Source: Candidatus Poseidoniaceae archaeon
Lineage (GTDB): Archaea; Thermoplasmatota; Poseidoniia; Poseidoniales; Poseidoniaceae
Assembly (NCBI GenBank): GCA_949372645.1
Contig: CASIAP010000004.1
Coordinates: 62,001-126,000 of the forward strand
Direction: 5' to 3'
Length of the DNA stretch: 64,000 bases
A program made the position numbers and the translations under genes. Every line of letters begins with the position of its first letter. The stretch's first letter is position 1. The notes below the pieces were generated by a model that was given only the letters and a program-made list of their open reading frames with translations, searched no databases and was not told the DNA's origin. Positions 47,923 to 50,929 of this stretch are shown here, one piece after another.

Positions 47923-48087
47923 ATGCCGAAAATTTCCTTAGACATGCCTGCGGAATTAGTCGAAGACCTACGTAAGCATGTAGGAGATCAACATAAATTC
48001 GTGAGTCTAGCGGATGCAGTTCGTACTGCATGCAGAAAACTTCTCGACCAGTTGGATGAAATTGATGCTCGGCATGGACGTACGTGA
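47923..48087 (+). CDS. Ribbon-helix-helix (CopG/NikR-like) DNA-binding protein, short
   Basis: A 54-residue protein: MPKISLDMPAELVEDLRKHV, then GDQHKFVSLADAVRTACRKLLDQL and a short polar tail. The N-terminal strand with alternating residues, helix A, the VSLADAVR turn and helix B form the classic RHH dimer fold. It would bind DNA as a dimer through the strand, without nickel-type C-terminal domains. Two inverted repeats lie directly upstream, so it is probably autoregulated. Its stop overlaps the start region of folE, making it the first cistron of a preQ0 operon. No toxin gene is adjacent, so an antitoxin role is unlikely. Confidence 0.8.
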   Translation: MPKISLDMPAELVEDLRKHVGDQHKFVSLADAVRTACRKLLDQLDEIDARHGRT

Positions 48088-48662
48088 TTGATATGGTGAC
48101 TAAAACAGAAGCGGAAAACGCAGTGAAAATATTGCTCGAATACCTTGAAGGTGATGCCCAACGCGAGGGATTACAAAAGACCCCTCAACGAGTAATTGAA
48201 TCATGGGATGAGATATTTTCAGGATATTCCACAGATTCTGAAGAATTACTTCAATCGACATTCAACGGTGAAGGGTATGATGGTATTGTCTTGCTCCGAG
48301 ATATCGAATTCCATTCAACCTGTGAGCACCACTTACAGCCGTTTACTGGACGTGCACACATTGCCTATATTCCAGTTGATCGTATTGTAGGCATCAGTAA
48401 ACTTGCAAGGATTGTCGATGCCCATGCCCATCGATTACAGAATCAAGAGCGTATAACCAAAGGCATCGCTGATGACTTGGAAAAACATTTGAATCCTCTT
48501 GGGGCAGCAGTCATTCTCGAAGCATCACATGGGTGTATGCGTTGCCGAGGTGTCCGCAAGCAAAATTCAGTCATGACCACTTCAGCAATGCGCGGCGTGT
48601 TTTTCGATAAGGCCGAACCACGTCAAGAACTCATGCAATTAATTCAATCACGACCCCTTTAA
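48084..48662 (+). CDS. folE: GTP cyclohydrolase I, FolE type
   Basis: The 192-residue enzyme converts GTP to 7,8-dihydroneopterin triphosphate. Seen are GLQKTPQRVIESW, the Zn ligand C80 and its neighbours in STCEHHLQPF, KLARIVDAHAHRLQNQERIT, and HGCMRCRG with the second Zn cysteine. Here, upstream of queE, queC and queD, it supplies the first step to preQ0 for archaeosine (and possibly queuosine-type bases) rather than folate. GTG 48084 overlaps the RHH stop; ATG 48093 is the other candidate start. Translation is probably coupled to the RHH gene. Confidence 0.94.
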   Translation: MIDMVTKTEAENAVKILLEYLEGDAQREGLQKTPQRVIESWDEIFSGYSTDSEELLQSTFNGEGYDGIVLLRDIEFHSTCEHHLQPFTGRAHIAYIPVDRIVGISKLARIVDAHAHRLQNQERITKGIADDLEKHLNPLGAAVILEASHGCMRCRGVRKQNSVMTTSAMRGVFFDKAEPRQELMQLIQSRPL

Positions 48663-48671
48663 GGTGATTCT

Positions 48672-49331
48672 ATGAGTGATGAAGCATGTATCATTTCAGG
48701 TGCCCACCCCGTTGATTCCGCGACAGACCTCGGAATGGTGTACAAAATCGTAGAGATTTTTCATTCCGTTCAAGGTGAAGGAGTACATGCAGGAATTCCG
48801 CATGTATTCATCCGCTTTGGAAAATGTAACCTCCAATGCGAATGGTGCGATACAGATTTCGAAACCTTTGACGAAATGGCAGCTGTTGATATATTGGGGG
48901 AAGTCATGAAGTATCCAGCAAAAAGAATCATCTTTACAGGTGGTGAACCAATGTTGAATGATTTATGGCCACTCCATCGATTATTCAAATCAAGAGGGTA
49001 TGAACTCTCTTGTGAATCAAATGGTACGATTGAGATCCCAGAAGGGTTATTGGATTGGATTTGCATTTCTCCAAAAGATCAAATGTATCCTCAAATCAAA
49101 ATCCGTCAGCGAAGAGGGGATGAACTCAAATGCGTCTATGTGGGTCAAGATCTATCACTTTATGATGGATTACTGGAAGGCTTTGACCACCATTTTCTGC
49201 AACCTTGCTATATCGATACAGAAAGCGTCGAATGGAATGGTAAGAATTTTGCAATGACTGAATCTGTTGTGAAGCAATCGCCTCCTTGGCGTTTGAGTCT
49301 TCAAACGCATAAGTGGATGGGGGTGGACTGA
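48672..49331 (+). CDS. queE: 7-carboxy-7-deazaguanine synthase, QueE
   Basis: The 219-residue radical SAM enzyme rearranges 6-carboxytetrahydropterin to 7-carboxy-7-deazaguanine (CDG). The cluster motif is C52-x3-C56-x2-C59 in GKCNLQCEWCDTDF, preceded by HSVQGEGVHAG and followed by IFTGGEPML. The short length is normal for QueE. AAGGTGATTCT before ATG 48672 contains the end of folE, so the genes are coupled. It works between QueD and QueC in the pathway. Confidence 0.95.
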   Translation: MSDEACIISGAHPVDSATDLGMVYKIVEIFHSVQGEGVHAGIPHVFIRFGKCNLQCEWCDTDFETFDEMAAVDILGEVMKYPAKRIIFTGGEPMLNDLWPLHRLFKSRGYELSCESNGTIEIPEGLLDWICISPKDQMYPQIKIRQRRGDELKCVYVGQDLSLYDGLLEGFDHHFLQPCYIDTESVEWNGKNFAMTESVVKQSPPWRLSLQTHKWMGVD

Positions 49332-50483
49332 ATGAAGCGAGCGGTTATGGCACTCTCGGGTGGAATGGATTCGACAGCCCTCTTGATGCGACTCTTGGCC
49401 GATCAATACAAAGTCGATTGTATTTCATACAATTACGGACAAAAGCACAGTGTTGAGATAGAACGTGCACAATTGAATATTCAATACCTTGAATCAAAGG
49501 GGTACGACATTGAACACAAAATCATCGACCTCTCAAGTGCAATGGGTGCGTTTGAAAGTTCACTCCTCAAAAGTGGTGAGGAGATTCCCGAAGGTCATTA
49601 TGAAGCTAAACAAATGAAATCAACTGTTGTTCCTAATCGTAATGCTATTTTCGCTTCAATAATGTATGGGTATGCATTATCAGTATCGAACCGTGAGGGG
49701 TGCAACGTTGAAATTGCCCTTGGTATTCATTCTGGTGATCACGAAATATATCCTGACTGTAGGCCAGAGTTTTATCAAGCCATCGAACATGCTTTTGCTG
49801 TTGGAAATTGGGACAGCGAAAAAATATCGTTCTCATTACCATATTTAGATGGCAACAAGGCATCAATTCTCGAAGATGCCCAAAAAGCGATTACACAACT
49901 TAAGCTGGAATTCAACACCGTGTTTGCGAACACCAATACCTCCTACAATCCTGATGAAGAAGGGCGAAGTTCAGGAATGAGTGGGGCTGATATTGAACGT
50001 ATTCTTGCATTCCACAGCCTTGGTCTAACCGATCCTGTGGAATACCAAACAACTTGGGGAGAAGTTCTCGCAAACGCCCTCCAAGTTGAAAAGGTGCACA
50101 GGGAAGAAGACTATCGTCAACGCCTCTCGGAAGAACAATACATGGTCACACGTCAAAGTGCAACAGAACGCGCCTTCACTGGAATCTATTGGGATGAGAA
50201 GAGAGATGGTGATTACTTTTGTATCTGTTGCGGCCATCTCTTGTTCACCTCTTCAATGAAATTTGATTCAGGATGCGGTTGGCCATCATTCCATACTGAA
50301 CATCCAGATGCAGGAATCAAACACATCGAAGATTATACTCATGGGATGCAGAGAGTTGAGGTTCAATGTTCAAAGTGTGATGCCCATTTGGGGCATATCT
50401 TTGAAGACGGACCTCGGGCATTCGGTGGGCAAAGGTATTGCATAAATTCGGCATCATTAGATTTTGAGGAGATGGAAGAATGA
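49332..50483 (+). CDS. queC-msrB: Fusion of QueC (7-cyano-7-deazaguanine synthase) and peptide-methionine (R)-S-oxide reductase MsrB
   Basis: The 383-residue protein joins two enzymes. Residues 1-250 are QueC-like: the PP-loop ATP site SGGMDST (9-15), YNYGQKHSVE, VVPNRNAIFASI (100-111) and GIHSGDHEIYPDCRPEF. Residues 258-383 are a complete MsrB: TGIYWDEK, Zn cysteines C297/C300 and C346/C349, FDSGCGWPSF, and catalytic C370 in RYCINSASLDF. The QueC Zn site, usually four cysteines (TxxCY...CGxCxxCxER), reads NTSYN and SGMSGADIER here with no cysteine. QueC converts CDG to preQ0 with ATP and ammonia; MsrB reduces methionine-R-sulfoxide. The order folE-queE-queC-queD supports the preQ0 role. The ATG directly follows the queE stop. 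Confidence 0.93.
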   Translation: MKRAVMALSGGMDSTALLMRLLADQYKVDCISYNYGQKHSVEIERAQLNIQYLESKGYDIEHKIIDLSSAMGAFESSLLKSGEEIPEGHYEAKQMKSTVVPNRNAIFASIMYGYALSVSNREGCNVEIALGIHSGDHEIYPDCRPEFYQAIEHAFAVGNWDSEKISFSLPYLDGNKASILEDAQKAITQLKLEFNTVFANTNTSYNPDEEGRSSGMSGADIERILAFHSLGLTDPVEYQTTWGEVLANALQVEKVHREEDYRQRLSEEQYMVTRQSATERAFTGIYWDEKRDGDYFCICCGHLLFTSSMKFDSGCGWPSFHTEHPDAGIKHIEDYTHGMQRVEVQCSKCDAHLGHIFEDGPRAFGGQRYCINSASLDFEEMEE

Positions 50484-50929
50484 CCACACGTATACGACGA
50501 TTTGTAGAAACTGATACCGGGCACCGAGTTCCAAACCACAAGAGTAAATGCCGCCACATGCACGGGCATAGATATCGATTTGAAGCAGAAATTGAAGGTG
50601 ACACCGTTCAAGAAACTGGCGTAAGTGAAGAAGGAATGCTGATCGACTTTTCAGATGTGAGTGCTATACTCATGGAACATGTACATGACATCGTTGATCA
50701 TGCATTTGTTGTATATGAAGGAGATTCTGAAGCACGGAAGGCTTGTGATGCAATGGGTGAAGGGCATCGGACAGTCGTTGTTCCGTTCATTCCAACAGCA
50801 GAAAATCTTGCTAAATGGGCATTTGAGCAAGTGCAGCCTCATATTTCAACTGCATATGGCAATCGACTGAAACTCGTTGCCATGCATGTGCGTGAAACTC
50901 CCAAGAGCACCGCATCGTGGATTCCATAA
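50480..50929 (+). CDS. queD: 6-carboxytetrahydropterin synthase, QueD
   Basis: The 149-residue protein of the PTPS family has Zn ligands H15, H28 and H30 (TGHRVPN, RHMHGHRYR) and the nucleophile cysteine C24. The later IVDHAFVVYEGD and PTAENLAKWAFEQV fit QueD. It makes 6-carboxy-5,6,7,8-tetrahydropterin from dihydroneopterin triphosphate, feeding QueE. Its start overlaps the stop of the queC-msrB gene in an ATGA. It ends directly against the convergent methyltransferase gene. Confidence 0.94.
   Translation: MTTRIRRFVETDTGHRVPNHKSKCRHMHGHRYRFEAEIEGDTVQETGVSEEGMLIDFSDVSAILMEHVHDIVDHAFVVYEGDSEARKACDAMGEGHRTVVVPFIPTAENLAKWAFEQVQPHISTAYGNRLKLVAMHVRETPKSTASWIP

Follow-up and report, generated by a model that had tools for sequence, protein, structure and literature searches.

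A QueC-MsrB fusion protein with a zinc-motif-free QueC domain in a preQ0 operon of Marine Group II archaea

We analyzed a window of 64,000 nucleotides of DNA from a Candidatus Poseidoniaceae archaeon (phylum Thermoplasmatota, class Poseidoniia, order Poseidoniales, the Marine Group II that is abundant in the ocean; assembly GCA_949372645.1, contig CASIAP010000004.1, positions 62,001 to 126,000), in which one gene, queC-msrB (49332..50483 of the window), joins a QueC domain, of the family that makes 7-cyano-7-deazaguanine (preQ0), to an MsrB domain, of a family of methionine sulfoxide reductases. This gene and all the features of the window described below lie on the plus strand. It is one open frame of 383 amino acids with an ATG start, and Pfam recognized both domains: QueC (PF06508) at residues 3 to 229 (E value 1.5e-40; 139.4 bits against a gathering threshold of 22) and SelR/MsrB (PF01641) at residues 265 to 379 (E value 3.8e-48). 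These were the only Pfam matches in the fusion chain at an E value of 0.001, with no glutamine amidotransferase (GAT) domain among them. The QueC domain (residues 1 to 250, 49332..50081) carries the motifs SGGMDS, YGQKHSVE, VPNRN, and YPDC, and the MsrB domain (residues 256 to 383, 50097..50480) carries both CxxC pairs and the RYCxNS catalytic motif. The MsrB half exceeded the cutoff of the NCBIfam equivalog-domain model TIGR00357 (162.9 versus 113.05 bits); the QueC half fell below that of the NCBIfam equivalog TIGR00364 (135.7 versus 150.3 bits). An earlier note on this DNA had described an unbroken 383-residue frame with a QueC and a complete MsrB, a boundary near residues 250 to 258, and cysteines at positions 297, 300, 346, 349, and 370, and the frame, the Pfam matches, and the translated protein agree with it on each point. 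We take Cys297, Cys300, Cys346, and Cys349 to be zinc ligands and Cys370 to be the catalytic residue. Two further cysteines, Cys299 and the putative resolving Cys315, were absent from that note. An AlphaFold2 (AF2) model (predicted template modeling score, 0.81) predicted a single continuous helix running through the junction and bridging both domains (residues 242 to 264 by DSSP, 50055..50123; predicted local distance difference scores of 89 to 95 for the block).

The QueC-MsrB fusion is real. Searching archaeal genomes for two-domain proteins, as the earlier note had suggested, we found both domains spanned by one listed place in at least 102 of the 243 genomes of the class. At least 100 fused genomes were left after two were removed: G045, in which an in-frame stop splits the fusion, and G154. 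The fusion of G154 (L273, contig C16) has the shorter of the two junctions described below and is intact save for one stop codon inside QueC, which is either a pseudogene or a sequence error. A few of the remaining fusions are cut by contig ends, and what had looked like internal stops in G037 and G061 proved to be just the terminal stop. All of these fused genomes, at least 100, belong to two families of the order, f1 and f2, and the fusion was present in 38 of the 39 genus-g1 and 22 of the 24 genus-g2 genomes having a match. Recurrence in at least 100 genomes, together with two fixed junction lengths, rules out an assembly artifact, a frameshift, or a pseudogene as the source of the fusion. 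Outside the order, no spanning fusion occurred among the matches listed from 145 genomes of the phylum; by hand count, 109 of these genomes belong to other classes. None of 937 plasmid records covered 80% of the fusion query, and the viral scan yielded 15 loci, all QueC only. The named-phage search used the QueC part only, and bacterial genomes were covered by a pattern scan (best 80 of 117 loci). The viral and genome scans were built on patterns of the window protein and so favor close relatives, and many genomes are incomplete.

We then compared the surroundings of the gene across 219 retrieved loci, 207 of which had queC or msrB; named and unnamed sources overlap, so these locus counts are not genome counts. 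The two genes were fused at 87 loci and split neighbors at 74, while queC lacked an adjoining msrB at 35 (some of which merely reach a contig end) and msrB was present without queC at 11. In the split rows inspected, the msrB start coincided with the queC end or slightly preceded it, often in an ATGA overlap (one base), or followed it closely. The fused, split, and msrB-less forms all occurred in the order folE-queE-queC-(msrB)-queD. Where Marine Group II encodes MsrB in a separate open reading frame, the gene stood beside queC in 50 of 51 rows among the matches listed (hand comparison), the exception being G144, and a single MsrB match was found in 173 of the 174 genomes with any. Marine Group III has folE-queE-queC without msrB at five loci (L184 to L188), and in the four genomes of this group with both genes located (G201, G202, G205, and G209) msrB was on a different contig from queC.

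The fusions have exactly two junction lengths, measured between the ER(I/V)LAF motif in QueC and the TExxFTG region in MsrB: 55 residues (type A, 69 loci, including that of the window) and 41 residues (type B, 18 loci). MsrB motifs were kept in all 62 nonduplicate fused rows (45 type A and 17 type B). In an MsrB tree the operon MsrBs formed one group, apart from those of Marine Group III and G144, and type B was a single clade (support, 99). A tree holding all fused rows together was not rejected (approximately unbiased test; P values of 0.70 for MsrB and 0.43 for QueC), and the QueC trees had low resolution, with families f1 and f2 intermixed. The two junction lengths and the type B clade suggest two fusion events. 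Two origins look likelier than one, but a single fusion with a later 14-residue change, or with transfer, is possible. Since queC and msrB are adjacent, and often overlapping, in many relatives, the fusion appears to have joined genes that were already neighbors. Two other pairs in the same operon have merged as well: queE and queC share a frame of about 507 codons upstream of queD at L189 (G121, contig C117), and msrB and queD form one 287-residue frame at L036 (3907-4767). These cases suggest that fusion is a by-product of tight packing, and the split, fused, and msrB-less forms together provide a clean case of fusion from adjacent genes. We also considered an internal start yielding free MsrB. 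No conserved methionine was found in type A, in which none of the first 40 positions had Met in more than 8 of 45 rows; in type B such a start is possible, as VMK occurs near the start in 15 of 17 rows.

The more interesting result is the QueC domain itself, which has no zinc site and shares this trait with phages. Libby et al. 2026 (PMC13329287) describe QueC as a zinc enzyme and name C(x)8CxxCxxC as a hallmark of the canonical form. No cysteine lies between residues 143 and 297 of the fusion protein, so the motif is missing from its QueC domain, a point that the earlier note does not mention. Ser204, Ser214, Ser217, and Asp220 replace the four cysteines in the corresponding stretch (residues 201 to 227, 49932..50012; register by eye). 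The zinc motif was found in none of 154 QueC rows from Marine Groups II and III plus a few bacteria (one row, L073, ends before the site). In its place is a conserved stretch, TxTSYxPDxxGRSSGxSGxDxERILAF, with a loop one residue longer by our by-eye alignment. The other signatures are kept: SGGxDS, YxQxHxxE, VPxRN, and YPDC were each present in 153 of 154 rows. A tyrosine in a T(S/C/A)Y context is essential in Escherichia coli QueC, according to the same part of PMC13329287, and this context was kept in 151 of the 154. By comparison, the zinc motif was present in every one of the 30 top-scoring QueCs of the phylum (best 30 of 315 genomes with a match), all of them from outside the class, which scored 263 to 280 bits versus 141 for the QueC of the window. 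YxQxHxxE is not strict, since the same pattern matched 17 of these 30 Thermoplasmatota rows. Within one family of Marine Group III, G193 (genus g23) has a QueC that is canonical-like by score (1.3e-67; sequence not inspected), and the genus-g24 genomes G196, G201, G202, G205, and G209 have the zinc-free form; this difference suggests gene replacement. PMC13329287 predicts, in the part available, a loss of preQ0 synthesis in major clusters with an altered signature and leaves the archaea-only clusters 7, 8, and 10 unanalyzed, and a zinc-free QueC of Marine Group II is not described there. Here, an archaeal order and many phages keep the other motifs and the operon, and in the archaea also the transglycosylase TgtA, without the zinc motif, so that the role of zinc in QueC is directly testable.

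The window-protein search retrieved 15 QueCs from viral contigs, of which 12 lacked the zinc motif, 2 had it in full, and 1 (L263), as read by eye, retains three of its four cysteines. The motif was also missing from a Flavobacterium phage QueC, and the zinc-free viral loci were L250 to L261 and L265. In a tree of 77 QueC rows, the zinc-free rows formed one clade (support, 100/100) comprising 36 Marine Group II, 5 Marine Group III, 13 viral, and 5 bacterial metagenome rows. Viral L250 to L252 adjoined a group of archaea and three bacterial rows, with support that was not strong (86/79). Both L250 (2609-5432) and L252 (2594-5602) carry a QueF-QueC-QueD-QueE-FolE cluster (QueF over the Pfam cutoff; QueD by eye). 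QueF acts on preQ0, and therefore the zinc-free QueCs of L250 and L252 presumably make preQ0. The clade suggests transfer of a preQ0 enzyme, in either direction, between marine archaea and phages. As to surroundings, the L250 cluster is near an exonuclease gene and a lysozyme-like gene, the latter suggesting a phage of bacteria, and that of L252 is near ParB-like and DNA methyltransferase genes.

In the window, the fusion gene occupies third place in a tight cluster of four genes, in the order folE, queE, queC-msrB, and queD. The first, folE (48084..48662), encodes a GTP cyclohydrolase I (PF01227, E value 2.7e-67; NCBIfam FolE models over the cutoff). It is followed by queE (48672..49331), encoding a radical S-adenosylmethionine protein like 7-carboxy-7-deazaguanine (CDG) synthase (PF04055 over the cutoff; best NCBIfam model TIGR04508, 134 bits against a cutoff of 240). 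The last, queD (50480..50929), whose first 4 bases are shared with the end of the fusion gene, encodes a protein like 6-carboxytetrahydropterin synthase (PF01242, E value 2.4e-26; TIGR03367, 81.3 bits against a cutoff of 89.25). These neighbors, identified through Pfam and NCBIfam, confirm the placement in a preQ0 operon that the earlier note had proposed, and its view of the operon as a route to an archaeosine precursor is probably right as well. The genome of the window encodes TgtA (TIGR00432, 430 bits versus a cutoff of 350), and a tRNA-guanine transglycosylase (TGT) was found in 59 of 60 genomes of the order. It also has an ArcS homolog (NF040592, 222 bits, below the cutoff of 440). Among 31 genomes, all had an NF040592 match (in some, no more than a fragment or the TGT protein), none of them over the cutoff, and none had QueF over the cutoff; the genome of the window had no QueF match. 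Therefore, TgtA, the below-cutoff ArcS homolog, and the lack of a QueF match indicate that the operon most likely feeds archaeosine. This genome, which is 84% complete, had one QueC, one MsrB match, and, on another contig, one MsrA match; two weak extra QueC matches were NAD-synthetase-like and GMP-synthase-like proteins (named by eye). Further close neighbors in the window are an aminotransferase gene and a TrmJ-like methyltransferase gene. The TgtA at L115 (1357-3675; G000, contig C11) has 772 residues, with a TGT domain at residues 49 to 372, a C-terminal PUA domain at 698 to 768, and a long Pfam-unmatched stretch between them.

Taken together, these observations lead us to read the fusion as a bifunctional protein, two catalytically independent enzymes in one chain, to which we assign a probability of about 0.6. 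From the sequences we infer that the zinc-free QueC domain would convert CDG, supplied by FolE, QueD, and QueE, to preQ0 using ATP and ammonia. TgtA would insert preQ0 at tRNA position 15, and an ArcS-type enzyme would then form archaeosine. The MsrB domain, the only one detected in the genome, would be an ordinary one that reduces methionine-R-sulfoxide in proteins generally, with the S form left to the MsrA encoded elsewhere. As for the order of events, an ancestor of Marine Group II may have gained msrB at a site between queC and queD; tight packing or overlap of the genes would have followed, and a change of frame would have erased the queC stop, giving the two junction architectures. The benefit is probably fixed-ratio coexpression or mere tolerance, not channeling or redox control.

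The distribution of MsrA bears on what the MsrB half does. Among the Marine Group II genomes, 183 had some match to the fused protein, and in these we counted MsrA and MsrB; for a few of them, such as G057, G095, G109, and G230, the match may reflect a single domain or the end of a contig. MsrA was present in 135 of 159 MsrB-bearing genomes versus 4 of 24 MsrB-less genomes (Fisher P value of 4e-11, with kinship ignored). In 20 of the 183, queC was retained without an MsrB or MsrA match, and 10 of these 20 belong to genus g14. The preQ0 genes stay: at the fetched loci of g14, g21, g22, g6, and part of g16, queC was found with folE, queE, and usually queD, with no MsrB match. The MsrA and MsrB matches were both missing from these genera, though present in relatives. 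Within g16, G044, G063, and G235 had both MsrA and MsrB (the MsrA of G235 being weak, 9.1e-5), and G017 and G121 had neither. Thus MsrB is lost mostly with MsrA while queC stays, and it follows general methionine-sulfoxide repair. In our best reading of these sequences, MsrB serves such repair and not preQ0 synthesis.

Several observations weigh against two independent activities. The association with MsrA has exceptions: MsrA was missing in 24 of the 159 genomes with MsrB and present in 4 of the 24 without it (two of g9, one of g5, and one of g2; G144, a relative of the two g9 genomes, has MsrB away from queC). The strikingly stable position of msrB suggests some selection for linkage. The junction length is fixed within each type and the AF2 model has a continuous helix, so a specific interdomain geometry is possible. 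Without a conserved internal MsrB start in type A, the amounts of QueC and MsrB would be locked together. Finally, the QueC half misses two canonical marks, the zinc motif and the TIGR00364 cutoff.

We therefore weighed other explanations. The one that survives best, which we regard as possible but unlikely, is functional coupling, in which MsrB would protect the preQ0 machinery (QueC, QueE, or TgtA) or sense oxidation, so that archaeosine follows the redox state. It would account for MsrB being fused or adjacent to queC in nearly all located MsrB-bearing cases of Marine Group II, and both the AF2-predicted bridging helix and the near-invariance of two QueC methionines, Met12 in the ATP loop (151 of 154 rows; 61 of 61 fused) and Met95 (154 of 154), are consistent with it. 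However, these methionines were also kept without an adjacent MsrB (Met12 in 27 of 30 rows and Met95 in 30 of 30), and Met12 was also present in 13 of 13 zinc-free viral QueCs. The three rows without Met12, none with an adjacent MsrB, were two bacterial rows and L189 (residue not read). A methionine client within QueC was thus rejected, as conservation showed no association with MsrB state, and the idea in the earlier note that MsrB guards a methionine-rich partner found no support as far as QueC methionines are concerned. Its other idea, that preQ0 output is coupled to oxidative state, does not fit with the 20 genomes that keep queC without MsrB and MsrA: several genera have preQ0 operons without MsrB, and the loss of MsrB accompanies that of MsrA.

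It is doubtful that a QueC lacking its zinc clasp is stabilized or oligomerized by a scaffold, either the MsrB domain or the long helix that the domains share. The absence of the zinc motif throughout the QueC rows and the confidently predicted helix would agree with such a role, but phages, Marine Group III, and msrB-less rows of Marine Group II all have zinc-free QueC with no MsrB beside it. The zinc-free form is therefore wider than the fusion and does not need MsrB, and we rejected MsrB as a substitute for the lost zinc site. We similarly consider it improbable that the QueC domain makes another product, either 7-amido-7-deazaguanine (ADG) alone or, as in Cap9/QatC, a deazaguanine bound to protein. 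The near-complete retention of the four motifs and of the essential-tyrosine context, the position among folE, queE, and queD, the presence of TgtA with no second QueC in the incomplete genome of the window, and the two viral relatives that adjoin QueF all speak against it. Least probable of all is a redox-hardened preQ0 synthase, in which a phage-related QueC exchanged its zinc-thiolate clasp for Ser/Ser/Ser/Asp and an MsrB was then tethered to it in sunlit-ocean archaea, repairing Met12 and Met95 in place and tying archaeosine supply to oxidative state.

The bifunctional protein that we favor differs from known systems in its combination of parts. With canonical QueC (PF06508 cluster 1 in the available part of PMC13329287; 3bl5 and 2pg3) it shares PF06508, the SGGxDS, YxQxHxxE, VPxRN, and YPDC motifs, and linkage to queD and queE, whereas it lacks C(x)8CxxCxxC, scores below the TIGR00364 cutoff, and carries a C-terminal MsrB. 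Its MsrB half, which was 52% identical to 3cxk over 127 residues, is a whole domain like MsrB/SelR (TIGR00357; E. coli MsrB, 6sym), with both CxxC pairs and the catalytic Cys, but it stands behind QueC, while MsrB is elsewhere free-standing or joined to MsrA. MsrA-MsrB fusions (3e0m, 5fa9, and 7e43) and PilB likewise use MsrB as a module of a multidomain protein; in MsrA-MsrB the partner is another methionine-sulfoxide reductase, whereas the partner in the fusion is a nucleobase enzyme. In archaea and phage 9g, GAT-QueC likewise fuses QueC to an enzyme in an archaeosine-type pathway, but its partner is an amidotransferase acting in that pathway, as the accessible part of PMC6884629 describes, and MsrB has no known step there. 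Judged by titles, the literature on QueC, queuosine, or archaeosine with MsrB or Marine Group II showed no apparent link, and we found no paper describing a QueC-MsrB domain combination. QatC has lost the canonical substrate motifs (PMC13329287, section 7, as far as available); in contrast to QatC/Cap9, the QueC of the window keeps them, and its neighbors are preQ0 genes, with no QatA, QatB, QatD, or CD-NTase genes among the nearest neighbors of the fusion. Defense-type reuse like that of QatC/Cap9, raised in the earlier note, is therefore not supported. Of four proteins submitted to PADLOC (the fusion, QueE, the aminotransferase, and the TrmJ-like protein), the fusion matched a QueC model at 51 bits, and QueE alone had weak matches to viperin models.
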